Assembly: GCF_964355755.1 (NCBI RefSeq)
Contig: NC_092674.1
Coordinates: forward strand, 1,741,001 to 1,805,000
Direction of reading: 5' to 3'
DNA from: Antedon mediterranea
Lineage: Eukaryota > Echinodermata > Crinoidea > Comatulida > Antedonidae
Length of the DNA: 64,000 bases
Below, piece by piece: positions 24,391 to 61,724 of this stretch. Position 1 is the first letter of the stretch; each line of letters opens with the position of its first letter. Below the pieces are notes generated by a model. That model did no database searches, was not told the DNA's origin, and saw nothing but the letters and a program-made list of their open reading frames with translations. The translations under genes and the position numbers were made by a program.

Positions 24391-27222
24391 TTCTACGAAC
24401 TTTCTAACTCTGTTTGAACAAACTTTCTAACTCTGTTTGAAAATATGTTATCTAAAATTGGAATGGACAGTGAATTAATTGTTGTTGGCGATTTTAATAT
24501 ATGTACTTTAACAAAGTCATCTTTATTGAATAGCTATAATCAAATTCTAAGTATGTTTAGTTTAAGTAACAAAGTAACTGAACCAACTAGGATATGCTCT
24601 ACAGTTGCTTCTTGCCTCGATCATATATTATGTAATAATGAGAATAAGATAAGCCAATCGGGTACAATCGCAACAGGTCTAAGCGATCACTTAATGACAT
24701 TTTGTACACGGAAAACTATTAAACTTAAGTTCAATGGACATAAAAATGTATATATCAGATCACTAAAAAACTATACCGTTGATCAATTTAGAAACATACT
24801 AATAGATATCGATTGGTCAGTAGTTACCTCTATCGGAGATGTAAATGAAGCTCTGTATAAATTTAATGCATTACTTTTGGCTGCTATTGATTCCATTGCC
24901 CCCCTTAAAAACATTAGGATGAAACAAAGAACGGAACCATGGTTAACTAGAGAAATATTACAAGACATTGAAACCAGAGATAAATTATTAAATATGTATA
25001 ATAAAAACAAGAATAATACCGACTTATTAATACAATTTCGCAAACTAAGAAATAAATTACAGCGTGATATAAATAAAGCTAAATCAAATCATTTGTTAAA
25101 CAAGGCTAAAGAAAATAAAAATAACCCTAAAAAATTATGGAAAATGTTTAAAGGACTAGGCTATAGTAATAAATCTAAGGATAGTGCTAAAACGGTTATT
25201 GACCTGCCCAATGGTACTAAATGTTTCGACCCAGCCAAAATTGCTTCTTGCTTCAACGAATATTTTACTACTATTGCAGCCAATTTGGTCAGTAAACTTC
25301 CATCCCCTAAGAATGTGTATGACTGTACGTCGTCCAAACTTAAGGATTTCTATAGAACCGTTAGTGGCAATAACTTTATGCTCAACTCAGTGGACGAAGA
25401 CTTTATATATAGTGAATTAAACAAACTTAATGCGACAAAAAGCACGGGTGTCGATAAGATACCTCCCCGCTTCATAAAAGATGGGGCTGAAATCCTAAAA
25501 GTTCCCATTACCTACATAATTAATTTATCAATTAGTACCAGTACAGTCCCAGAAGACATGAAAAAGGCCAAGGTCATACCTCTTTATAAAAAAGGTAGTA
25601 GAACCGATATTGGAAACTATCGCCCTATAAGTATACTCAGTACAATGTCTAAAATTTTAGAGAAGGCTGTTTTTATTCAAATCGAAAAATACCTTACTGA
25701 AAACAACGTATTGTATAAATATCAATCTGGATTTCGAGCTGCCTTCTCTACTGACACATGTTTGATAGACTTAGTTGATTCCCTTAAAACCCAAACTTCT
25801 AAGGGAAATTTCTCGGGTATGGTGTTGGTCGATTTAAAGAAGGCATTTGACACTGTAGATCATGACATTTTATGTAATAAGCTTAAATTAATGGGTATTG
25901 GATCTATTGAATGGTTCAAATCTTACATATCAATAAGAAAGCAAATAGTAACTGTTGATGATCATTGCTCTCAATCTTGTACTGTTACATGCGGGTTCCT
26001 CAAGGAAGTATCCTTGGACCCCTTTTGTTCTTATGTTTTGTTAATGACATGGTAACTTGTATTGATCCTGATTGTAAACTCCTTCTATACGCTGATGACA
26101 GTGCAATTGTTTATTCACACAGAAATCCAGATATTATTTCTAAGAAGCTAGGGTCAACACTAGACTCCTTGTGTGATTGGCTTGTAGACAATAAATTAAC
26201 AATTAACCTGGATAAAACTGAGTGTATACTATTTGGTTCTAAGAAAAAAACTAAAAATGTTAACAATTTTAATGTCTCAACAAATGGTAACAATATCAAC
26301 ACTAGTAATTGTGTCAAGTATCTTGGTATTGAAATAGATCAAAATTTAACGTGTTCTGAATATGCATGTAAAACCATTAAGAAAATTAATAATAGGCTTA
26401 AGTTTATGTACCGCCAACGTAAGATACTAAGTTGTAAGAAACTATTATGCTCTGCTCTCATCCAATGTGTTTTTGATTATGCTGAATCTTCTTGGTTCTG
26501 TGGAACCAGTAAAGCTATCCAAAGAAAACTACAAATTGCTCAAAACAAAATGGTTAGACTCATAAAAGGAGTTGAACCCAGAAGACATATAGGTGCTGAT
26601 CAATTAGACGATTATGGATTGTTAAATGTAAAATATCGAGTAAAGTTCTTTCAAATTAGCCAAGTTCATAAGATATTTATGGGCAGAAGTGCTTCATACC
26701 TAAACGAAAACTTTCGTAGAGTTAATAACTTACATGGTCACTTCACTCGTGGTAGTAAACTCAATTTTGTTGTACCTAAGGTCCAAGGCATAGAATGTAA
26801 TACATTCTATTTTAATGCAATCAGAGAATGGAATAACCTTCCTGACTATATTAAACAAATTTCCAACACATCTAAATTTAAAACTGAATTGAAACAATAT
26901 TACAAAATTAAACATAGATAAATTATTATTGTGCCATTATATCCGATGTTTTGCTTATATGCTTATATATTTATGAACCCCATCTTATAATGTTTGTTTT
27001 GTTAAAATTATAATTACTATCTCTTTAGGGACCACATTGGAATTAAGTTGTTTTACTTTAAACGACTTTATGTGTTTTCCCGTGCATCGTCAGACTTCAT
27101 TAATCCCGCCATTTTTATTTGCTTTTTTGATGTATTTTAATATTTAAGGTGATTATATATATTATTGATGTATTTTTAATGTTATGTATTGAGATGCCAA
27201 ATAAATGAAAGAAAGAAAGAAA
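24391..27222 (+). mobile_element. CR1-like LINE: endonuclease C-terminus plus reverse transcriptase, frameshifted
   Basis: The first frame (24445-26055) starts inside the apurinic-type endonuclease (VVGDFN, later GLSDH) and continues into the reverse transcriptase (NYRPISILS, LVDLKKAFDTVDH). A one-base loss near 25992 moves the frame. The second frame (25965-26921) carries VPQGSILGP, the YADD catalytic box and the C-terminal region (YLGIEID, EWNNLPDYI). The 3' end near 27222 is AAATGAAAGAAAGAAAG, the simple-repeat tail. The 5' part of the element is missing. Fragments of the same clade occur at 49074-49546 and 61960-63000. It lies upstream of the sulfotransferase start in intergenic DNA. Confidence 0.9.
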
Positions 27223-31017: not shown

Positions 31018-34000
31018 TTATGACTGTAGATTTTCTTTCCAAGCTGTTTTGGGTTTATTGAATTTGTCTCCTGTGCAAAAAAAAAAACGGAAAGAGATAT
31101 TTAATTAGGTTTTTAAAATTACAAACAAATAATTATGTTACCACTATTTCCTGTGTTTGGGAATTTTGTTACAAATTTGTTTAAATTATTAAATTTAACA
31201 CAAGAAAACATACCTTGTCCTTTAAACGAAGCCAAGCTTGAAATACCGCTGTCCTTGGATACAACAGACCTTGTGTCGCCCTCATCGGAATCTGATGAAT
31301 TACTGTCGTGACGTTTGCTCTTTAGGTCCGATTCTTCCATTTGTTCCACTTTTACTTCATCTACAGAATCATCTGACAAATACAAAAGTTCATGAAGTAT
31401 GTCAAAGGCAAAGAAACTCTTAACCCAAAGTTTAAACTATCCAACGAGACCATGTAAAAATTATTTTACTTCAGTTAACGACATTTTGTTTAATCTTTAC
31501 TCTGCAATTATTTATCAAGGTTTTTTTAAATTAAATTATACACACTATATTGATTGCCTTATACACTTTTACGTTGAAACAAAAATAACATGGTATAGCA
31601 CTGAAGTAAAATATTACAGTACTGCAGTATACTGTAGTAGAATCATTTGTACACAGCCTCTAAACAATACTATACTCAAAATACAAAAAGATGAGATATA
31701 CAGTACTGTATTTATTAATATAAGGAAAGATAGATTGTAACAGCTAGTGAAACCCCTTTTGACAAAATCACAATTTTATAAAAATGGCTCATTTACTAAT
31801 GATAGACTCACCTGAAGAGTCTACTTCAGGGTCATCATCTGACAGAATAACTGTTTCTTTTGGTTCTTGTGTTGATTTTCGCTCTGCATTCTAAAATATA
31901 AAAGCATATCACAAAAGTAACAAAAATAGTTAATTAAAATAAATTGTTATTATACTTGATTTCAAATTGAATAGACCAATCTCATTGTGCTAATAAAAAT
32001 AATAATTTTATTATTTAAGAAGACAAAAACTTTACATACATCAAAACGTCGTTTATATGCTGGATACTTCATCTTTTGTTCAGTTCTTGCAAGAACCATT
32101 TGTATTCTTCTCTTTAAATTTTCCCAATCCACTGAATGAGGCTTGCCTTGTTTCCACAGCTGCTCTTCAATCTTTAGTGCCTCATTGAAATTCTCTTCTG
32201 CACTCCGCATATCACCTCTGTGGTTGCGTTCATAGTAGAACAGACCTAGTAGGTAGTATGTACGTGCTGTGTCTGTATGAATGCCTAGCAACTCCATACG
32301 CCTACTCGCACACCTTTCTCCAAAGTCAATAGCATCTTCATATCTGTGAAGAAAAAGAATACAAATATGATATGGTTTTATGCACTCTTTTGGGATAAAT
32401 GAAACTTTAATATTATTTTATTTATTATCAATTATGTTAACTCCACCTTTTTTAGGAGACATAATTAATTGTTTTTGAAAGTTCCAATGTTGTTTCTTTG
32501 TTTCTTTGTTGCTTACTTTCTTGATGTTAATTTTATCAAATTTGTATTGATGTAATTAATAAAGAATTAAAGTATATTCTGGGGACATTTTCCTGTAAAT
32601 CAAATGACAGTATGTTTGTCAATGCTTACATGGGACACCACTGAAAGGTGACACTTTGTTGGGTCCCAAAGATGTTCCCTTAATTAAGTATTTAATTCAA
32701 TCAAAGAAAAATTGCAAAGTTACTTGTCCTCATCTCTCAATGCGAGTGCTAGATTTCGCAAAGTCTTCAGATAACCTTCTTCATTATCAATAACCATTTC
32801 ATCCTCCACACGCAAAGACCTTCTGTAATATTCAATAGCGTTTTCTCCTTCTTCCAGCTGATAATAACATGAACCAATATTTGCAAGGTAAACTGGAATA
32901 TCAGGATGATGTTCTGATTGGGTGAGTTCCATTCTTAATTCGTATGCCTTGCGGTAAAATTCTAGCGCTTCTTTTATTTTGCTCTTTTCACACAAAGCAT
33001 TGCCTTGCTGAAGCCGAGATTTGTTCAATATTAGATCTGCCATAGTGCTGTAGAAACGAGCTGTATTGGTATTCTTCAGCTTCAGTTCTTTCAAGAGATC
33101 ATATGCAATCCTGATTCTCTCAACAGCTTTGTCAAAATCTTTCAAACATGTGGTACAAACATTGCCCCAGAGTTGGTAAAGCAAATTTAATTTTTCTTTT
33201 TCAGCATCAGTAAGAGAATTGACATGCTTTGCTGCAAAATATTTTTCAGATTTCTTTCTGAAAAGCTTTGTTGTAAGTGACATTTGATCAGAGGTTTCTT
33301 CTGGCTTCTTGGTTCTCAGAAGTTCCTGTTCAGCTGCTTCTAGCAATGGTAGAATTTCTTCATATCGATAGTTAATTCTTGACATCTGCAATCCTTCATA
33401 AGCTGACATTTCAACAAACTGTAGAAGATTATGACTTTCGTACTCAAGTTCACGTTGAGCTTTGAAAAACTTCAATCTTTCTTTGGTTGAATAAAATAAC
33501 TCCACAGTAGACGATATTACTCGCCATTCCTCAGTATCAACACTTCTTTTTTGTTTTGGCAGAAGTTTAAGAAGCTCTTGAAAATTAGCTGCATCTTCGT
33601 TCTTTCGTTTCATTGCTTTCTTGTATCGTTTCTCACTCAGTTGTCCAATTTTCTTAAGCTTCCGGAGAAAGTAACCAATAAACTCTTGCTCTCCAATTTC
33701 GTATTCACTCGTGACAGATTTGTCTATTTGGGCAATCTTCTGAAGGAATTGTCGCATTAGAAGATGCATCCCATAACGCACATCAGACTTGTTAAAATCT
33801 TCATTGTCATCTATCGATGTTTCAATCAGGTTTCTATATTTGAGATCCTGAAGTTGGAGGTTCACTTCAACTCGCTGTGATCGCTTCATTCCAAGAATTG
33901 CCATAGCTGCTCGACTTGTAAAAGTACCAGGAACAGTAGCGAGTCGAATCATGCGGAACTTTTGGTTGTCTGGTAAGCTGTCAATTGTGTTCTTCAAGCA

Positions 34001-35259
34001 AGCTTCTAAATTGACATCTCCATAAAATCCCAGCTGGGTGACCTCATCTGAGCGACTCTCCAAATACTCAATTAGTTTTTTAGGTGGAATAGTGTGGTCT
34101 TGCAGACGACTACCTGTTACTTTCAACGCCAATGGACACTTGCCACAAATGTGTACAAGCTTTTGTGCTTCTTCATCAGATATATCGGTCCTACCAGCGT
34201 AATACTGCAGGATGTCTCTTGCATCATCGTACTCCAGTTCATCTGCTTTTATAGAAATAGACTCCACACATTTCTCATAACGTGCACAAAGTTTTCGAGG
34301 AAGCCCCATTCTGGTTGTGATCAAAACCTTTAGACAGGTGTTCCCACATTCAATAATTCTTTCTATAAGTTCAACAAAGTTGTTGTACACGTCATCCTTT
34401 ACTCCTTCTTTTGGTGTTCTTAGAGGGCGATCGGCGTTGTCAAACAAAAGTACAGCTCCACCTATTTATAGCATGAAAAAAAAACATAATTACAACTAAA
34501 GTACATTAAGAAACAAATACTCTTTGGTATTGCAATCTTCCGGACAAACTAGTCTAACGTGACAGAAATACAGATTATGGTTATGTGTGAGGGGGAGAGT
34601 CGGGGCCATAAGTACGTACCAGCTTTCTTTGGTTTGTATTGTTTCAACCTCAAAATCAGAACATCAATATCCACCATTAAAGTAGGAACTTCACCCATGG
34701 TATGCAAAACTGCATTAAAGATGCTCTCAGTCGATGACAGCTCCCGGAGGTCAACAAACAGCAACTCATGGTACTCTATCTGCCGGTAACATGCCTCCTT
34801 TGCTAGCCTAGTTTTACCCATACCAGGAAGGCCACTGATGCAGATTGTTGCCACACCATCGTCGTCATGTTTTTCTCCAAGGAGATAAAACAATTGCTCA
34901 AGACGATCTTTCCTACCAATAAATGGACCCTCTGAAGCTGCAGGATGCTTCCGATAATGCCTAGCAATAACGGCATATTCCGAGTTGTATTTATTAAGCT
35001 CTTCTATCAAATCATTCCGCCCAATCTCATACAGGATGTGTCGTAGTAAGAGAGTATCCCCTTCGTGGAAATGATTTCCTTCTTGTAGCTTATCGAAAAA
35101 GTCGAACGTGTCCTTAATATCCTCATAATTTCTAGCCCCAAGTCTGTCTCTGACGAGTGATTTTGCCGCCTTCAATTCTTTACTAGTAATTTCGTTCGCA
35201 AAACAAACGATAAGCCATCGAAAACGACTAATTGAGCTTGGATCGTTTGACGACGCCAT
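31018..35259 (-). CDS. DED-NB-ARC-TPR (STAND) protein
   Basis: Six exons join in phase to 990 residues: 34620-35259, 32724-34461, 32040-32343, 31812-31890, 31214-31372, 31018-31070. Residues about 11-92 form a death effector domain, with the RNDL (RxDL-type) motif near 81-84. An NB-ARC ATPase follows: P-loop GLPGMGKTRLA (143-153), Walker B AVLLFDNAD (216-224), LITTR (260-264), and CPLAL (322-326, the GxP region with Cys-Pro). Residues from about 430 on are helical TPR repeats (for example YLANIGSCYYQL and YYLLGLFYYER blocks). The last three exons encode an acidic Ser/Asp-rich tail with SDDDPEVDSSG and SDSDEGD. STAND proteins of this type, such as Apaf-1, oligomerise on nucleotide exchange and recruit partners through the N-terminal death fold. 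Here a caspase-8/FADD-type partner is inferred from the DED. The start ATG opens the first long frame. A near-identical broken paralogue lies at 56926-61122. Confidence 0.92.
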
Positions 35260-35379
35260 TTTATTAGGCCCGGATAGCTTGGCCTAGAGTATTTGTTTTG
35301 TGTGGAACCATTGAAGCGTAACGGTTGTACAACCATCCATCCAGGGCATCACATAATTTTATTAATTGTAATGTTGTTG

Positions 35380-35397: not shown

Positions 35398-36605
35398 GTA
35401 ACAGTTGTACACAGAATATTAATTATGCCACCAATGTATTGGGTATAGCCTAATTTCCAAATATATATGATTGGCTTAAGAACGGTAATATGATGAGAAA
35501 GATGTGTGCCTTAAAAAATGACAATTTGTAAACATTTTAAGATTATAGTATTATTCAGCATAATGTCATTTAACAGTAGGCCTACAATTATTTAAATGTG
35601 AAATATTTTATAGGGAACGTAGGCTGTACTGTGTCTTTTATGTTATATGCAACAAATTACGTAAAACAATTTATTTATAAACATTCAGTTTACTATTAGT
35701 ATTACAATTAACATTGTGTACGTATTATTCCGTGCCTCTTCACTGTCTTGTTTAATTTAAAATTAAATAAACACCCGATATGAGGATATTTATTAGGCAT
35801 GATAATTAGAATGTTCTATAACCAAAAGGGTTGAAAAGAATTTCTTCAGTAAAATGATCATTGTGCTGTTGAATAAAAGGCGACTCGCAATCTGAAACCA
35901 ATCGGAGCTGCGCCTTCTGATATCTGTTTCCTCACAGCTGCTACGTCTTTCTGCTGACCGTCGGGGGATTCCCCTTTTTAAAAAACACGCACACGATACT
36001 GTACGATGGTTTTTCCATGGTCAAAATGTAGCGTTTTAATTTTGCTAAAATACCTGCATGTATAAAACGATCATATCGGCGATATTTTTTATTTCTTCAT
36101 TTTGAAAAGTCATAATAAAATTAAATAACACACACATAACTTGTCAATAAATGCAAAATTATCAAAGTAGCCTATAACACTCATTGCCTTACACAATGCT
36201 GTTATTGTTTTAACTAATAGTATACGAAGGCCTACTACACATTTATACATTATTATATTATCCTAAAAAATAAGCTGGTATCCACGCGTAGGTTGAAGAA
36301 AGATTCGTAATTGTGGCTCTGGTAACTGATTTTAAAATCATATTAAATTAACATTTTCGAAACTGTAAATCAGGGAAAATCTTTTTAGAACTTTCAAACA
36401 AGGAACTATTTTATTAATGATTTTTAAAAAGCACATCACTCCTTTAAAACCTGTAAAATAAAAATTAAAACACAAATTATGTATATAATAGGATAAACAT
36501 TAAATGTAGGCCTATACGACATTTAGCGCGACCAAAGTAACAACGCGATCGATATCAAACGCAACCGATATGATTAAAGCAGCGTACTAACTACTAGCGG
36601 CGGCG

Positions 36606-39241
36606 CACAGTGGGCCAGAATCAATTCAAAGTGTGCCAAAAGTCCAAAATGGTAAATGTGGCATTCCGAACTTTTTAATATTGGATTAGGAAGAAGACAT
36701 CTTAAATTATATAAATCCACTAATAATTTTATTTTTTGTAAATTTTAATAGTGTCTTGTAACCATGGAAACTTGAAGAAACCATGACATTTCACTTAAAA
36801 TGAGCAAAAACAACAGTTTTGATAAATTCGCTGTTATTTTTTCTAGAAAAAAGCAATGGATTTGATACTGCATGAAATTGTTGTCTGTTATTAATACTAT
36901 TAGGCAGTAAAATAACATTTTCGATTATTGCTTTATTTTAGGGTTAAAAGTCACAAAATATATCCCAAAAATGCCACAAAAAAATCATATTTTTAAAGTA
37001 AAACCACTAAAATAGTTTGGATTCGCGTCGATTCGCGCGCTAATTTTGACATTAATATTTCGAGCAAAACTTGAGCTTTACGTTAATACCATATTTGGCT
37101 GCGAAAATTCGCGACATTGCATATAGGAAGCTATTTAAATGTCCCGTTTTAAAATAAATGTATAATGCATTTCCATTGACACATTGATGTACCGCAATCG
37201 CACGAACTTGACGAAGAGAAAACCTTTCCACGACGCGTCTGTATTGGAAAAGAGAATGCTACCAGTGTGAGAATAAGCATTCATAAATGTAGGTACAGGA
37301 AACATGGCCTCCATATCAAAATACAACCTTTAAAGCTGTCCATTCGGCTGGTTTAATTACCAACATTGAACTAGCCTGCAATGTATGTTTACGTGAATTG
37401 CGTTTACATTACAATGTAAGGAATGACGAGAACATACCAAAAGAACTTTTAGAGTATACTACTAAAACTATCAAACCATTTTCTTTATTATTTACGAAGA
37501 AGATGGTACAAGTATGGCCGTCACACAAGGTTCATTTCATCAACTATTATTAGTCAGAGAACCAGAAGAACTTCTCTATGTTGCTACACAAGGCGTCTAT
37601 AAGCAAAATTCACATTTAAAATATGTGCTAAAGTTTGCAATGCTAGTTACACCATTAAGACCAGATAAAATAAGAAATTTAATATCCGAAAAAAAACCAG
37701 AACCGATCAAGTTTACTAGTGAAAAAGCTTTGTCACTTTTAGCTCTAAGTTGAAACTGATATGATAAAACAGTCATACCAAACAGGTGTGTGGAACGTGA
37801 GGGAAGCTAAGCAAAGATGCTACGTAAATAATATAACGGTTAAAGAAGATTCGGCAAGAGTACCCCTTCAAAGCTTGCTGGACCAAACTGCACTTCGAAT
37901 TGTTCAGTAAAAAAAAAAAAGAAATTAAAGAAGTAGTTGAACATAAAGATACTTCCTCGTGATTTTGCCGACCTTTACACCTGCAATTCAATATATTATT
38001 TGATATTAATTAACTATGAACTGGCTGCAGATGAAAACAGAAAAGACAACATCTAAATACACTACAATTTACAATTCACCATAGTTGACCAAAAGGTCGT
38101 GAATGCTTTGACTGAAACCAAGTATTCAATGCGATGTTATATATGTGAAGCTACTCCAAAACAGTTTAATGATTTGGATAAACTTCCATCGTTAAGTAAA
38201 GAAGCCTACAGCTATGGCTCTCGCCACTACACAAATGGAGGAGGTGCTTCAAAATGCTAATTCATATTGGTACAGAATGCCAGTAAAAAAAGTGGCGTAT
38301 TTCGTCTGCCTGATAGTGAAAAAGCCATCGTTGCCGATATGAAGAAAAAAAATACACAATCGGTTTAAAGAAGATATAGGAATGAAAGTAGATGAACTTA
38401 AAACAAGGTTCAGGAAAACAATGGCAACATAGCTTGCAGAGCTAGCTCTTCAGGAAAAGGAGACTTTCGCTGAAATTTGCGGGTTGGATGTAAATCTAGT
38501 ACGTGTTTAGACCCTTTTTAGGGACTACTGCCGAAAAACAGCAGAGTTATATATACAACTCTATCCATGGTATAAAATGCCAGTGAGTGTACATGTTCTC
38601 CTAGTTCATGGTTCATCAATTATTTCGAGTTCTGTATTACTGATAGGTATGATGAGCGAAGAGTCTATCGACGAAAACATACAATGAAAACAAACGACAA
38701 CATAAGTGATGTATTTCAGTCATTTAAACCCTTATTTGTAACATGCAATAAAAACCTATTTTCAATATCAATATTATTCACACAATCAGAAAACAGTATT
38801 TGTAATGACATAATACTGTACATTAAAAAGATGGTTTCATTGAACTCTGTGGATCTTTAAATAATTTAAGTACGTTTTAATCATGGATGCAATTTAATCA
38901 CACACGATATTGCAATGAGAATTAAAGTCATCTATCAAAAATTATTATGTTATGACGTCTAATATATTAAGAAAATGTTCCAGTTGGATTTTTATTGGGT
39001 GTAATAGAAACCCTTACACTTTCAATAATGAATGTAATATCAATCGACATAAGAATTACAAGCACATTCGCCTCAACCAATCAGAAAACACCATTTTTAT
39101 TACGTCATACCTATTTAAAAATACTTCCATTAAATTCTACGGGTCTGAAAACCCCTTAGATCCTTTAAAAATTAAGGTAATCAGTATTTATTTATGCGTA
39201 TAGACTTTTGACACACTTTGAACCAATTCTGGCCCACTGTG
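36606..39241 (+). mobile_element. decayed Transib (RAG1-type) DNA transposon
   Basis: The element starts CACAGTGGGCCAGAAT and ends in its reverse complement. Inverted repeats run about 39 bp with few mismatches and include a second shared block CAAAAGTC about 24 bp from each heptamer. Both sides are bordered by CGGCG (36601-36605 and 39242-39246), a 5-bp GC-rich target duplication of the Transib kind. The terminal heptamer is identical to the V(D)J RSS heptamer. Transposase remnants lie on the plus strand with stops and frameshifts. Pieces include the zinc-binding-like MRCYICEATPKQFNDL near 38130-38180, and LYPWYKMPVSVH followed by GMMSEES near 38550-38670, where RAG1/Transib proteins carry the last catalytic Glu. 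Further pieces lie at 37330-37753. No intact frame remains, so it is inactive. Confidence 0.82.
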
Positions 39242-39282
39242 CGGCGCTTCATAGTATAGTCATACCGAAATAAAACCATGGG

Positions 39283-39396
39283 CGACTTTGTAATGGGGCG
39301 ACTTTGCGATGGGGCGACTGTGCCGGGGCGACTTTGTTTTGGGGCGACTTTGGGATGGGGCGACTTTGTATGGGGCGACTTTGCGATGGGGCGACT
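39283..39396. repeat. GGGGCGACTTTG minisatellite
   Basis: Eight copies of GGGGCGACTTTG with a 2-6 bp variable spacer (for example CGAT or TAAT). The array starts about 40 bp after the right end of the Transib-like element. Confidence 0.9.
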
Positions 39397-39419
39397 TGAC
39401 TAGCATCCTTTAGAAGTAC

Positions 39420-40016: not shown

Positions 40017-42072
40017 TACGACTTCAATTCAATTCAATTCAATTCAATTCAAAATTCTTTAATCATCCCACACGGGGCAATTCAAATAAAAAGGTCTGGA
40101 TTAAAATGATCTTACAAAATATACAAAATATCACAATACACAGAACAAAATAGAAAAAAAGTCAAGTCAAGGTTCAAGAATTTAAGAGTCGAATAGCCAC
40201 TGGCAAAAACGAATTCCTTTTCCGGTTTGTTCTACATGCCGGGCATCGAAAGCGACGCCCATGAGGCATGAGCTCGAAATCACTGAACAAGGCATGGTTA
40301 ATATTTTTTAGAATAGCTCTACTTTTTTCTAGAGTTTGCATGTCACAGAAAGAAGATAAGCTACGAAGTTGACAACCTATTAATTTAGAACTTAAGTTAA
40401 CAATTCTTTGTAGTGAGTTTTTCTCTTTGACCCTAAGACTAAAAAACCAGCATATAAAGGAAAAAGTTAAAACGTTCTCAATAAAGGAATTATAAAAAAC
40501 CCTAAGAATTACTTTATCGACATTAAAATGGTTCAGCTTCCTTAACAGATAAAGTCTCTGGTGTCCTTTCTTTACTATTGCCTCTGTGTTTAATTCCCAG
40601 CCGAGATTGTCCTCAAATATAGTACCTAGGTATTTAAAGGAATGGACAATATCGACTGGTTCGTCATTTATAATGGATACCCAAGGGTTGCGTCCTTTCT
40701 CCTTCCTAAAATCTACAATCATCTCCTTGGTTTTGGTCACATTGAGTTCCAAGTAGGAGTTTCCACAAAATTGGATAAAATCATCTAAAGCGGAACCATG
40801 GCCGTCCTGTGAATTTTGAAGGAGAGACAGCAAGACAGTGTCGTCAGCAAATTTAACAAGATGACTATTGTCCTGTTTGCTGCGACAGTCATCCGTGTAT
40901 ATAATATACAGGAGAGGAGAGAGGACGCAACCCTGGGGGGATCCAATACTTGTCATACGTACATTCGAGTGTCTTTGGTTAACTAAGACCCTCTGACATC
41001 TGTTCGTAAGAAAACTTATAATCCATAATACAAAATCACGTTGAAAACCAAAATTCGAAATTAATTTGTTTGCTAAAATATAAGGGTGCATGGTATTGAA
41101 GGCAGAAGAGAAGTCGGCGAATAACATTCTGGCGTGAGATCGAGGCAGTTCAAGGTGCTTGTACAATGTGTTTAATAAAAAAAGCTTGGCATCCTCAACA
41201 CCTCTTCCAGACCTGTATGCAAACTGCAGTGGATCGAGTTTAGACTCTACAACAGACGTGATGTAGGTTTTAACTATCTTTTCAAAGATTTTCATAACAA
41301 GAGATGTCAGCGCAATAGGGCGCAGATCATTCAGTTGTTTTATGACAGTCTGTTTAGGAATAGGTTTTATAATCGATTCTTTCCAAAGATTAGGAACTAC
41401 ATACTGGTTTATAGAGGTCTGGAAGAGGTACCGAAGGACACCACTGAGCTGATCCGCACACGACTTCAATGTTCTGCCCTCAATACCATCGGGACCAGAA
41501 CTCTTATTTACATTTATATTCCTGAGTAATGTTCTAACATGATCCTCAGAAATAATAATTTCATCTACATGCGGATCATTATTGCCAACAGTGTCGTCTT
41601 TTAAATCGTGTTTTTCAAACCTAGCAAAGAAGTCGTTTAATCTATCTGGCAATGCCTGGTCATCAATACCCTCTACATTTATTTTATTTCTTTGTGTTTT
41701 ATCAGCTGTGTTTATAGACGCCATATGTTTAATTCCTTGCCAAGCACTACGAATACATCCACTACTAAACTTATTTTCAATTTTTCTCTTATACATGTCT
41801 TTAGCCTTACGGACAGCTACTTTAACTTCTTTATTTATTTGCTTATTATCGTGAGTGGTGCCTTGGTAAAAAATCCGTTTCTTCTTATTTAATATGTCTT
41901 TCAACTCTTTCGTAACCCACGGCTTATTATTTGCAAAAACGACAACCTCTTTTTTCGGTAATACTGAATCAACACAATAATTTACATATGATGTTATAAC
42001 ATCCGCCATTTCGTTTAGATTTGGTGACGACTCATAAAATACTTGCCAATCAGTGCATTCAAAACACCCTCT
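40017..42072 (-). mobile_element. 5'-truncated LINE (Rex1/CR1-like) with intact reverse transcriptase frame
   Basis: One open frame (40174-42009) covers the connector and reverse transcriptase. Recognisable boxes are SGPDGIEGR, LRPIALTS, LFADFSSAFNT, SPQGCVLSPLLY, the catalytic KFADD and FKYLGTIFED, followed by a CPACR end. The 3' tail is (GAATT)n on the minus strand, at 40020-40045. The endonuclease is lost by 5' truncation near 42072. GACTT borders both sides and fits a 5-bp target duplication within the AACGTT repeat. The frame is intact, so the insertion may be young. Confidence 0.88.
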
Positions 42073-42560
42073 TAGACTTTATAACGTCCAAAATAACGTG
42101 TTTATAACGTTTTTTGAACGTCCTCAATAATGTTCATAAATAACGTGTTAAATACGTATTTATAACTTCTACAATAACGTTGCACGAACGAGAAAATGTC
42201 GACCTTTTTATACGACTTTATAACGTCCAAAATAACGTTCAAAATAACGTGTTTATAACGTCTTTTGAACGTCATCAATAATGTTCATAAATAACGTATT
42301 CAAAACGTATATACAACTTCTGCAATAACGTTGATAAAAAACGTGTCCTAAACGTTTTTTTAACGTTTTATGTAATGTTTGTAAATGACGTGTTTGCAAC
42401 ATGTTTTTAACGTCCAAAATAACATTCATACATAACGTATGCAACGCGTTTTTATAACGTCCTAAAAATGTTCACAATTAAAGTGTTAGGAACGTGCCTT
42501 CTACGTTTGTAAATGACGTATTTGCTACGTGTTTTTAACGTTCTCAATGTTTTTAAATAA
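42073..42560. repeat. AACGTT / ATAACGTCC-rich diverged tandem repeat
   Basis: More than twenty ACGT cores occur in contexts such as ATAACGTGTTTATAACG, TGAACGTCATCAATAATG and AACGTTGCACGAACG. A loose period of about 30-40 bp can be seen, and two copies of GTCGACCTTTTTATACGAC mark a longer unit. Weaker copies continue to about 42860. No coding potential. Confidence 0.75.
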
Positions 42561-50994: not shown

Positions 50995-53205
50995 TAATAA
51001 TAATAAATAATATATTTATACAGGATAAAACAATCAGATAACAGTGTATCTGTTTTACATTGTGGTCCTGTCTTAATCAAAATATACAAAAGAGAAACTT
51101 AATTAAATATAATACATGTCAGTTTTTTATGAAAAGAAATGAGATTTGTATCTAGCCTTAAAGGACGTAATTGTTGGTGCCGATTTAATATTAATTGGTA
51201 AATTGTTCCATATTTTTGCGCCTGCAACTTTAAAGGACGAATTCATTTTACTAAGGGAGTATTTAGGTATTGTTACATTCAAATTTTCTACTCCACGTGT
51301 TAAGTGGGTGTGAATATCGCGAATCAATTCAATTTCATTTACTAATCTAATTGGTGCAAGGCCGTAAACACATTTATACATTAGACATGCTAGGGAGAAA
51401 TCTCGTTTCTCTTCAAGAGTTTGCCACGATAGGTTCTGGATGATGTTGTCACCCCTTACATTAATATAATCGAAGTTGTTAGTTACAATTCGAGCAGCTC
51501 TTTTTTGATGTCGCTTTAAAATATTTTTGTTTAACTCTGTCGTATTTCCCCAGACTGTTATAGCATAATCACTACAAGGCTGAATTGTACTTATATATAG
51601 AGTTTCAAGTAACGGTTTACTTAAACTACTAGCCATTTTACCTAGCATTGTTATTTTATATCCAATATTTTTACTAATACATTGAGTATTTTGTTTCCAA
51701 GTTAACATTTCATCGATTACGACTCCCAGATACCTTATACTATCAACTTGTTCTAATTTACTGGTTCCAATTTGTATATTTAAATCATTACTGTCAGCTG
51801 TATGATTGTTTCTTAGTAACATAACCTTTGTTTTTTCAGTATTTATAGAGAGGTGGTTGTCATCATACCATTTACCAATGTTATCAATAATTATTTGTAA
51901 TGAATCATTTACTATCTTAGCAGTATCACCTGAGGTGTAAACCACAACATCATCAGCAAAAACGCTGCAAGTTCCATTTACTATAGACTGCGAAATATCA
52001 TTTATGAAAATGAGAAACAAGATGGGTCCCAGGACACTTCCTTGTGGAACACCAATATTGATTTCTTTAAGTGTAGATTTGTTATTGTTACAGTATACAA
52101 ACTGTTTTCTGTTTTTTAAGTAATTACTAAACCAGTAAACAACATTTTCATGGAAACCATATTTGTAAAGCTTAAATAACAAAATTGAGTGATCTATCGT
52201 GTCAAAGCACTTGGATATATCTAAGAAACAAGCGCCGACGACCTCTGAGTCATTAAAACTTTCTAACCAATCATCAACTACTCTGTGCAAGCATGTTACA
52301 GTAGAATGGTTTTTCAAAAAGGCAAATTGATCAATGTTAATCAAATCAAACAAACTAAGAAAAGAAATGATTTGTTCCTGAACCACTCTCTCTATAATCT
52401 TTGCGATATGAGCAACGACAGATATTGGTCTGTAGTTGCTCATACTGTCTTTACTACCCTTTCCTTTATATATAGGAGTTGTCCTTGCTACTTTCCAATC
52501 AGCTGGGACAAGACCAGACATGAGAGAGAGATTCACAATATGACACAATGGATAAGCAATGTACGGAGCTGCTAACCTTAACAATTTACTATCAAAATCA
52601 AGAACATCTAAATTTTTTTCTGGCAAATTATAAAGCTTCCTTTTAATGGTATTTACATCAACATTTATAAAATTAAAGGAATATTCACTAGGTGGATTAT
52701 TCCAACTTGGCAGCGTATCGTCAAATGACTGCGCCATCTTAACTCCTATGTTGGTAAAGTATTCATTAAAATGTTCGCAATCAATAGTTTGTTAGATTTC
52801 GTTTTACCAGTTAGTTTATTTAGCTCGTTCCACATTTTTTTTGGATTATTTTTATATTTTATATTTACATTATTAAAATAGTTATACTTTGCTTTCTTAA
52901 TGTTAGTGTTAACCAGATTTCTAAGTCTTCTATACTCAGTTTTTAATCCTGGATTATTAACATTTACTTTGCTTTTAGTATAATCTCTTTTGTACATTAA
53001 CTTTATAATTTCAGGAGTTATCCAGGGAGAGAATCTATTTTTTATTCTTGAATTTTTTATAGGCCCATGTTTATTACTTAAATTTAGAAAGCAATTTTTA
53101 AACGTACCCCATGCATTGTCAACGTTATTAATATTGTGAATATTTTGTAATTTCTGAGAATGGGAAATATCATGCAAGAATGCCCCTTCATCAAAGTTCT
53201 TATAT
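50995..53205 (-). mobile_element. LINE (CR1/jockey group), 5' truncated, nearly intact reverse transcriptase
   Basis: The minus-strand frame 51127-52737 has VPADWKVARTTPIYKGKG, NYRPISVV, FLDISKCFDTIDH, GVPQGSVLGP, the catalytic VFADDVVVY and IRYLGVVIDE. The upstream frame 52746-53177 (SPWITPEIIKLMYKRD) is one frame away, so a single shift near 52780 separates the two. The endonuclease is missing. The 3' end shows an ATT-type simple repeat at 50995-51012. Confidence 0.88.
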
Positions 53206-56925: not shown

Positions 56926-59900
56926 TTATGAATGTAGATTTTCTTTTCTTGCTGTTTTTGGTTTATTGAATTTGTCTCCTGTGCAAAAAAAAGGGAAAGA
57001 GATAGAAAAGTAGGTTTTTAAAATTACAAACAAATAATTATGTTACCACTATTTCCTGTGTTTGGGAATTTTTTACTAATTTGTTTAAATTATTAAATTT
57101 AACACAAGAAAACATACCTTGTCCTTTAAACAAAGCCAAGCTTGAAATACAGTTGTACTTGGATACAACAGACCTTGTGTCGCCCTCATCGGAATCTGAT
57201 GAATTACTGTCGTGACATTTGCTCTTTAGGTTCGATTCTTCCATTTGTTCCACTTTTACTTCATCTACAAAATCATCTGTCAAATACAACAAAAGTTCAT
57301 GAAGTATGTCAATGGCAAAGAAACTCTTAACCCAAAGTTTAAACTATCCAACGGGACCATGTAAAAATTATTTTACTTCAGTTAACAAAATTTTGTTTAA
57401 TCTTTACCCTGCAATTATTTATCAAGGATTTTTTTAATATAATTATACACACTATATTGATTGCCTTATACACTTTTACATTGAAACAAAAATAACATAG
57501 CACTGAAGTAAAATAATACAGAACTGCAGTAGAATAATTTGTACACAGCCTCTAAACAATACTACTCAAAATACAAAAAGATGAGATATACTGTATTTAT
57601 TAAGAGACTGCTAGTGAAACCCCTTTTGACAAAATCACAATTTTATAAAATGGCTCATTTACTAATGATAGACTCACCTGAAGAGTCTACTTCAGGGTCA
57701 TCATCTGACAGAATAACTGTTTCTTTTGGTTCCTGTGTTGATTTTCGCTCTGCATTCTAAATATAAAAGCATATCACAAAAGTAACAAAAACAGTTAATT
57801 AAAATAAATTATAATTATACTTGATTTCAAATTGAATAGACCAATCTCATTGTGCTAATAAAAATAATAATTTTATTTAATTATTTAAGAAGACAAAAAC
57901 TTCACATACATCAAAACGTCGTTTATATGCTGGATACTTCATCTTTTGTTCAGTTCTTGCAAGAACCATTTGTATTCTTTTCTTTAAATTTTCCCAATCC
58001 ACTGAATGAGGCTTGCCCTGTTTCCACAGCTGCTCTTCAATCTTGAGTGCCTCATTGAAATTCTCCTCTGCACTCCGCATATCACCTCTGTGGTCGCGTT
58101 CATAGTAGAACAGACCTAGTAGGTAGTATGTACGTGCTGTGTCTGTATGAATGCCTAGCAACTCCATACGCCTACTCGCACACCTTTCTCCAAAGTCAAT
58201 AGCATCTTCATATCTGTGAAGAAAAAGAATACAAATATGATGTGGTTTTATGCACTCTTTTGGGATAAATGTGACTTTAATATTATTTTATTTATTATCA
58301 ATTATGTCAACTCCACCTTTTTAGGAGACATAATTAATTGTTTTTGAAAGTTCCAATGTTGTTTCTTTGTTGCTTACTTTCTTGATGTTAATTTTATCAA
58401 ATTTGTATTGATGTAATTAATAAGGAATTAAAGTATATTCTGGGGACATTTTCCTGTAAATCAAATGACAGTATGTTTGTCAATGCTTACATGGGACACC
58501 ACTGAAAGGTGACACTTTGTTGGGTCCCAAAGATGTTCCCTTAATTAAGTATTTAATTCAACCAAAGAAAAATTGCAAAGTTACTTGTCCACATCTCTCA
58601 ATGCGAGTGCTAGATTTCGCAAAGTCTTCAGATAACCTTTCTCATTATCAATAACCATTTCATCCTCCACACGCAAAGACCTTCTGTAATATTCAATAGC
58701 GTTTTCTCCTTCTTCCAGCTGATAATGACATGAACCAATATTTGCAAGGTAAACTGGAATATCCGGGTGATGTTCTGATTGGGTGAGATCCCTTCTTAAT
58801 TCGTATGCCTTCTGGTAAAATCCTAGCGCTTCTTTTATTTTGCTCTTTTCAACCAAAGCATTACCTTGCTGAAGCCGAGATTTGTTCAATATTAGATCTG
58901 CCATAGTGCTGTAGAAACGAGCTGTATTGGTATTCTTCAGCTTCAGTTCTTTCAAGAGATCATATGCAATCTTGATTCTCTCGACAGCTTTGTCAATATC
59001 TTTCAAACATGTGGTACAAACATTGCCCCAGAGTTGGTAAAGCAAATTCAATTTTTCTTTTTCAGCATCAGTGAGAGAATTGACATGCTTTGCTGCAAAA
59101 TATTTTTCGACTTTCTCTCTGAAAAACTTTGTTGTAAGTGACATTTGATTAGAGGTTTCTTCTGGCTTCTTGGTTTTCAGAAGTTCTTGCTCAGCTGCTT
59201 CTAGCAATGGTAGAATTTCTTCATATCGATAGTTAATTCTGGACATCTGCAATCCTTCATAAGCTGACATTTCAACAAACTGTAGAAAATTATGACTTTC
59301 GTACTCAAGTTTACGTTGAGCTTTGAAAAACTTCAATCTTTCTTTGGTTGAATAAAACAACTCCACAGTAGACGATATTACTCGCCATTCATCAGTATCA
59401 ACACCTCTCTTTTGTTTTGGCAGAAGTTTAAGAAGCTCTTGAAAATTAGCAGCATCTTCGTTCTTTCGTTTCATTGCTTTCTTGTATCGTTTCTCACTCA
59501 GTTGTCCAATTTTCTTAAGTTTCCGGAGAAAGTAACCAATAAACTCTTGCTCTCCAATTTCGTATTCACTCGTGACAGATTTGTCTATTTGGGCAATCTT
59601 CTGAAGGAATTGTCGCATTAGCAGATGCATTCCATAACGCACATCAGACTTGTGAAAATCTTCATTGTCATCTATCGATGTTTCAATCAGGTTTCTGTAT
59701 TTGAGATCCTAAAGTTGGAGGTTCACTTCTACTCGCTGTGATCGCTTCATTCCAAGAATTGCCATAGCTGCTCGACTTGTAAAAGTACCAGGAACAGTAG
59801 CAAGTCGAATCATGCAGAACTTTTGGTTGTCTGGTAAGCTGTCAATTGTGTTCTTCAAGCAAGTTTCTAAATTGACATCTCCATAAAATCCCAGTTGGGT

Positions 59901-61122
59901 GACATCATCTGAGCGATTCTCCAAATACTTAATCAGTTTTTTAGGTGGAATAGTGTGGTCTTGCAGACGACTACCTGTTACTTTCAACGCCAATGGACAC
60001 TTGCCACAAATGTGTACAAGCTTTTGTGCTTCTTCATCAGATATATCGGTCCTACCAGCGTAATACTGCAGGATGTCTCTTGCATCATCGTACTCCAGTT
60101 CATCTGCTTTTATAGAAATAGACTCCACACATTTCTCATAACGTGCACAAAGTTTTCGAGGAAGCCCCATTCTGGTTGTGATCAAAACCTTTAGACAGGT
60201 GTTCCCACATTCAATAATTCTTTCTATAAGTTCAACAAAGTTATTGTACACGTCGTCCTTTACTCCTTCTTTTGGTGTTCTTAGAGGGCGATCGGTGTTG
60301 TCAAACAAAAGTACAGCTCCACCTATATGGAAAAAAAAACATAATTACAATAAAAGTACATTACGAAACAAATACTCTTTGGTATTGCAATCTTCCAGAC
60401 AAACTAACAACAGAAATACAGACTGACCGTTGGTTATATAGGGATGGGAGAAATTGGGAGGGGGAGAGTGCAGGGGGTTGGTATTCCATAAGTTACGTAC
60501 CAGCTTTCTTTGGTTTGTATTTTTTCAACTTCCAAATTAGATTATCAATATCAACCAATAAAGTTGTATCTTCACCCATCGTATGTAAAACTGCATTAAA
60601 GATGCTCTCAGTCGATGACAGCTCCCGGAGGTCAACAAACAGCAACTCATGGTTCTCTATCTTTGCTAGCCTAGTTTTACCCATACCCGGAAGTCCACTG
60701 GTGCAGATTGTTGCCACACCATCGCCGTCATGTTTTTCTCCAAGGAGATAAAACAATTGCTCAAGACGATCTTTCCTACCAATAAATGGACCCTGTGAAG
60801 CTGCAGGATGCTTCCGATAATGCCTAGCAATAACGGCATATTCCGAGTTATATTTATTAAGCTCTTCTATCAAATCATTCCGCCCAATCTCATACAGGAT
60901 GTGTCGTAGTAAGAGAGTATCCCCATCGTGGAAATGATTTCCTTCTTGTAGCTTATCGAAAAAGTCGAACGTATCCTTGATATCTTCATAATTTCTAGCC
61001 CCAAGTCTGTCTTTGACGAGTGATTTTGCCGCCTTCAATTCTTCACTAGTAATCCCGTTCGCAAAACAAACGATAAGCCATCGAAAACGACTAATTGAGC
61101 TTGGATCGTTTGACGACGCCAT
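56926..61122 (-). pseudogene. DED-NB-ARC-TPR paralogue broken by a nonsense codon
   Basis: Exons correspond one to one to 31018-35259: 60501-61122, 58585-60322, 57910-58213, 57678-57756, 57118-57276, 56926-56978. Splice sites and exon lengths are kept, apart from an in-frame loss of six codons after the P-loop in exon 1. There the paralogue's EACYRQ is missing, between RLAK and IENHE. In exon 2 a CAG codon has become TAG (59709-59711), just after the NB-ARC module at about residue 412. Translation would stop after DED and NB-ARC, leaving out all TPRs. The reading frame after the stop stays open to the normal end, so the break looks recent. It could still yield a short DED-NB-ARC protein with a regulatory role, or the TAG could be allelic; I favour a young pseudogene. 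Confidence 0.85.
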
Positions 61123-61148
61123 TTTATTAGGCCTGGAAAGCTTGGCCT

Positions 61149-61724
61149 GTCACGCCAAAATCGGTCCGGCCGGATCGATTTTGGTCGTAATCAAGCACCA
61201 AAACTGGTCCGGTCACGTCGGATCGCTTTTGGCGTTGAATGAAACAGCCGCTAAATTTAAAACAGGTCTGGCTAGGCCAAAACTGATCCGGCTTTTAAAA
61301 TCGCTTATTTATTCTTTAAATTGTGCTGTTGCAAACAGTTCAAATGGTTAAAGTAAACTATGCTTAAAGTAAATATACTAAATATTACCGTACAAGCGAA
61401 AAGAAATTATCGACACACTAATTAAAGAAACTCTAATCGGCTTTTGGGATATTCTATTGCATGTTCAGTTCGTTTAAAACTAATAGCGCCCTCTAGTAAT
61501 TTTATATTATGTACAGAACGCCGATTTATTCTTGCACATTTTTAATCTCTCCGTTTCGATAATTTCTTAGTTTACTTCACCCATTTGGACTTTTTTAAGG
61601 ATAAATAAGCGATTTTAAAGGCCCGACCAGTTTTGGCCTAGCCGGACCTGTTTTAGCGGCTGTTTCAACGTTAAAATCGATCCGACCGGACCAGTTTTGG
61701 CCCCGGACCAAATTTCGCGTTACA
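61149..61724. mobile_element. foldback MITE, GGCCT target duplication
   Basis: The ends GTCACGCCAAAATCGGTCC and (reverse strand) GTAACGCGAAATTTGGTCC are related. The inverted match continues inward for roughly 150 bp through GCGGCTGTTTCA-type and AAATCGCTTATTTAT blocks. GGCCT flanks both sides (61144-61148, 61725-61729). The matching site in copy 1 (about 35270-35285) has one GGCCT and no element. It lies just upstream of the broken STAND paralogue. Confidence 0.8.

Follow-up and report, generated by a model that had tools for sequence, protein, structure and literature searches.

The transposase of Transib elements is a distant relative of the enzyme that assembles antibody genes. Transibs have already been published from echinoderms and many other animals (PMC7204232, PMC9435367), their autonomous members usually occur at one or a few copies (PMC4411706), and CGNCG is their published target preference (PMC4735498, PMC5704228). 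They have a CAC-type heptamer and GC-rich 5-bp duplications in common with RAGL (ProtoRAG/TransibSU-like) elements (PMC7204232, PMC8289069), and the criterion dividing the two is transposase identity, which lies below 22% between Transib and RAG1 or RAG1L (PMC7204232). A literature search found no publication joining Transib or RAG1-like sequences with crinoids.

The element analyzed here lies in a stretch of 64,000 nt (hereafter the window, C5:1741001–1805000), and genome searches covered 354 Mb in 18 contigs, among which a search for COX1 turned up no mitochondrial gene. It almost certainly represents a Transib-superfamily cut-and-paste family, within a young non-autonomous 2.6-kb subfamily that lacks a RAG2-like gene and does not belong to RAGL/ProtoRAG. 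The family is new and its kind is already known; what it contributes is a well-defined Transib family added to one animal genome.

The structure described in the initial annotation, namely inverted CACAGTG heptamers at both ends, about 39 bp of inverted repeat, a second block about 24 bp inside each end, and CGGCG on both sides, was recovered in full (Table 1). The two ends are identical at 35 of 39 bp, with mismatches at positions 17, 18, 19, and 31, and the conserved inner block CAAAAGTC occupies exactly positions 32–39 in both. They belong to a pair of inverted arms, 58 nt at 81%, that is far longer than any other in the region, the runner-up measuring 17 nt. CACAGTG is not rare by itself, occurring three times in the window vs 5.3 expected, so the evidence for the element is the structure as a whole. 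The insertion target is a host repeat, and two paralogous copies of this repeat, on C9 and C10, represent the empty site with one CGGCG (CTAGCGGCGGCGCTTCATA); the joined flanks of the window insertion align to both without interruption, which fixes both element boundaries and the duplication. We rejected the gene paralog at window position 61 kb as an empty site because its similarity ends before the insertion point. An Rfam search of the window returned no match.

Table 1. Features of the Transib-type element and its insertion site (positions in the window)
Feature	Position	Strand	Remarks
Transib-type element, transposase relic on + strand	36606..39241	+	2,636 bp; 1 of 15 young-subfamily copies
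Left target-site duplication, CGGCG	36601..36605	.	Single CGGCG in empty sites L081, L082
Right target-site duplication, CGGCG	39242..39246	.	Empty sites L081, L082
5' terminal inverted repeat, 39 bp	36606..36644	+	Heptamer CACAGTG 36606-36612, 23-bp spacer, CCAAAAGTC 36636-36644
3' terminal inverted repeat, 39 bp	39203..39241	-	Heptamer CACAGTG 39241-39235, 23-bp spacer, TCAAAAGTC 39211-39203
Host repeat, left part (insertion target)	36205..36605	.	Dispersed family, at least 40 copies
Host repeat, right part	39242..39400	.	With 16-bp minisatellite (GGGGCGACTTTG...)
Transposase relic, N-terminal part	37326..37577	+	aa 8-91 of read-through protein; C5:1778326-1778577
Transposase relic	37535..37919	+	aa 126-259; C5:1778535-1778919
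Transposase relic with second Asp (TIVDQKVVN)	38000..38434	+	aa 366-511; CYICEATPKQFNDLDK zinc-binding-like stretch
Transposase relic, C-terminal RNase H part	38268..38672	+	aa 456-605; YPWYKMPVSVHVLLVHGSS...GMMSEE with catalytic Glu
Deletion point, 141 bp lost vs L075	37537..37538	+	Includes GRP motif of nonamer-binding region
Deletion point, 174 bp lost vs L075	37951..37952	+	Includes WGFDGSSG with first catalytic Asp

We searched the genome with a 35-bp end pattern, a check suggested by the initial annotation, and obtained 75 matches at ≤3 mismatches vs 0 for the reversed pattern. Pairing the ends gave 20 complete (two-ended) copies, 16 of which are flanked by an exact 5-bp duplication; of the other four, three show one mismatch and the fourth shows two. 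Exact duplications of 3, 4, 6, 7, or 8 bp were found in none, and when the right flanks were shuffled among copies (20,000 trials), exact 5-bp matches averaged 3.3 and never exceeded 10. Targets are mostly CGNCG (12 left and 15 right flanks among the 20 copies). Together with the empty sites, these counts bear out the GC-rich 5-bp duplication expected of a Transib, and a different duplication length in other copies, which had been named as grounds for abandoning the assignment, did not appear: it is 5 bp throughout. The ends, the duplication, the target preference, and the empty site are direct observations.

Longer copies of 4.5–8.8 kb also occur; the additional sequence in them shows no alignment to the element and resembles insertions of other DNA. 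A stretch of 1.7 Mb at C5:12437867–14158596 holds about a dozen Transib 5' ends, every one on the minus strand, and 3' ends were not found there; this cluster was probably amplified within a larger local repeat. In two copies, L060 (C2:35756757) and L061 (C2:34750973), a few extra bases separate heptamer and duplication (CACTGTCTGTG and CACACTGTG, respectively), as if the tip of the end had been partly duplicated.

An RSS-like CAC heptamer, another feature claimed at the outset, is present at both ends as CACAGTG, within an end pattern repeated genome-wide; the ProtoRAG heptamer, by comparison, is CACTATG (PMC8289069). CACAGTG is exactly the RSS consensus, and positions 31–39 (CCAAAAGTC and TCAAAAGTC) sit exactly at the place of a 23-RSS nonamer and match ACAAAAACC at 6 of 9 positions on each end, so that the ends could be read as a true 23-RSS-like pair of heptamer, 23-bp spacer, and nonamer, unusually close to the ancestor of V(D)J signals. 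We regard this as improbable: a 6/9 nonamer likeness at a spacing of 12 or 23 ± 1 has p ∼0.08 in random sequence of the same composition and, because the two ends are homologous, counts as one observation, whereas all 39 bp rather than two blocks alone are conserved between the ends. Symmetric ends are, moreover, usual in Transib families (PMC8289069, PMC8355894), and the element is symmetric (23/23), as opposed to the asymmetric spacers with nonamer of the 12/23 RSS arrangement. Its spacer of 23 bp at both ends compares with 20–22 bp in the symmetric Transibs of PMC8355894. The nonamer resemblance is therefore suggestive at most, and it is doubtful that this Transib family pairs its perfect RSS heptamer with a genuine nonamer-like signal exactly 23 bp away at each end; if it did, the full 23-RSS architecture would already have been present in plain single-gene Transibs.

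The Transib assignment finds its second line of evidence in the transposase. The pieces in the window, from ∼37326 to 38672 on the plus strand, carry frameshifts and stops and match the HzTransib structure (Helicoverpa zea, PDB 6pqn and related entries) at E = 1.6e-15. Relics around SEES...RKH had been cited in favor of Transib; they do support it, but SEES and RKH are not in frame with each other, about ten codons between them having been deleted after the catalytic Glu, and the C-terminal piece is interrupted both by stops and by this deletion directly after the Glu. The second Asp and the Glu region are kept in the window copy and the first Asp is lost; this copy is dead, deleted, and cannot encode a transposase.

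Far more of the transposase is retained by an older copy, L075 (C5:20.84 Mb), whose C-terminal end, past an inserted stretch, reads SEEAQEARNKDNKVYRRKHARKT. A 627-aa read-through query was assembled from broken frames, mainly those of L075; L056 supplied the C-terminal end, and a few residues served as bridges. Searched against PDB, this read-through of older copies matched 6pqn at E = 3.9e-92 (313 bits), the only match at E ≤ 10. Identity to HzTransib, the one reference protein on which the Transib comparison rests, is 42% over ∼430 aa, and the catalytic D, D, and E (WGFDGSSG, TMVDQK, and REEAQEARNKD) align with those of HzTransib. No Pfam model recognizes the element's transposase, and a genome search with the HzTransib protein found only the family of the window element, with no second Transib lineage detected.

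HzTransib resembles the element further in being a single-gene element with a CAC-type heptamer end, and differs from it in that the window copy carries deletions and is dead. The end sequence of HzTransib departs from that of the window element past the heptamer. The target, CGNCG, is that of the moth Transib (PMC4735498). Among described groups, Transib Subgroup II (PMC9435367) has in common with the element symmetric ends, an HzTransib-type transposase, and the GRP motif of the nonamer-binding region, which was described in PMC9435367 and is found in L075; from these sequence features, we infer that the element belongs to Subgroup II. Ends, 5-bp duplication, CGNCG target, and HzTransib matches all agree on the Transib superfamily, as the initial annotation had proposed, and the possibility it had raised against itself, that the remnants match another transposase superfamily better, was checked, Transib proving the best match.

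ProtoRAG, RAGL, and TransibSU elements are like the window element in their CAC heptamer, GC-biased 5-bp duplication, and distantly related transposase. The element might accordingly be a decayed RAGL element that has lost its RAG2-like gene and is directly related to the ancestor of RAG, and a profile of two sequences, the read-through and HzTransib, did bring up amphioxus RAG1L as the next best solved structure (1.9e-5), followed by RAG1 (0.0056), with alignments covering the C-terminal region with the catalytic Glu and, for RAG1L, the first Asp as well. Such an origin is nevertheless very unlikely. The single-sequence PDB search returned HzTransib and neither RAG1 nor RAG1L at E ≤ 10, and the 42% identity contrasts with the <22% that separates Transib from RAG1 and RAG1L, placing the transposase far closer to Transib. 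Each 2.6-kb copy holds one transposase relic. The initial annotation had advised looking for a RAG2-like gene in fuller copies; the 4.5–8.8-kb copies were rejected as such versions, their additional sequence being unlike the element and the reading frames of L056 and L058 showing nothing RAG2-like, and no copy of the family was seen to carry a RAG2-like part. Pfam RAG1, Pfam RAG2, and a RAG1L fragment had no match when searched against the genome, but the assembly may contain N and no positive control worked, the control genomes being prokaryotic or absent, so these negatives say little.

Neither a convergent pair of RAG1L and RAG2L genes inside the element nor a transposase grouping with RAG1/RAG1L, the two marks of RAGL/ProtoRAG, was found. 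The Transib element is thus RAG1-related in the way that every Transib is, and its sequence makes it Transib proper by a wide margin. The suggested bearing on RAG origin is not supported: the transposase groups with HzTransib and not with RAG1L/RAG1. Since Transib and RAGL form separate clades, as was already known, and echinoderm Transibs have been reported before, along with those of many other animals, the RAG story is unchanged and the contribution of the element to it is slight.

The young 2.6-kb subfamily comprises 15 copies including that of the window, with a mean pairwise K2P of 3.2%; most lie 1.2–2.3% from the consensus and one lies at 3.7%. Building this consensus, also recommended initially, revealed a reading frame that is already broken. 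Compared with L075, the majority consensus carries shared deletions of 141 bp and 174 bp (Table 1) plus others, among them that of the stretch after the catalytic Glu, which indicates that the form that was amplified was unable to make its own enzyme. The stretch with the first Asp is covered by L075 only, among all genome matches. The subfamily therefore spread non-autonomously, most likely mobilized in trans. That it was instead autonomous while spreading, all 15 copies having been broken independently later, is scarcely credible, for although each copy has private changes and lies mostly ∼1–2% from the consensus, that consensus is itself broken and, by comparison with L075, has several shared deletions, a catalytic residue being lost to one of them, and the first-Asp stretch is missing from every genome match except L075.

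The common ancestor of the subfamily already lacked the first catalytic Asp and the GRP motif, along with part of the sequence that follows the Glu, and the shared deletions suggest that an intact relative, no longer found in the assembly, mobilized the young subfamily in trans. The likely mechanism, by analogy with the biochemistry of HzTransib, is that an HzTransib-like transposase binds the 39-bp ends, cleaves both heptamers at their CAC, and inserts the excised element into a CGNCG target by cuts staggered by 5 bp, repair of which would produce the target duplication. No intact transposase or source element was found in the assembly, parts of which may read N (masked). With at least 15 young copies and an empty site, the subfamily offers a clean case of non-autonomous amplification after the loss of a catalytic residue. 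A further step toward the non-autonomous form, in the same direction as the young subfamily, is a 350-bp MITE (L083, C6:7035214–7035563) that consists of two inverted 5' ends of the family and has the near-duplication CGGCG/CGCCG at its flanks.

In the window, a gene with a death-effector domain, an NB-ARC-like ATPase, and TPR repeats occurs twice on the minus strand (31119–35283 and 57038–61149), the two copies being 94% identical over 4.5 kb, and the Transib copy lies upstream of the first. Long reading frames at 24418–26921, 40174–42078, and 51127–52791 are broken to varying degrees and, by eye, look like non-LTR retrotransposon endonuclease/reverse transcriptase.
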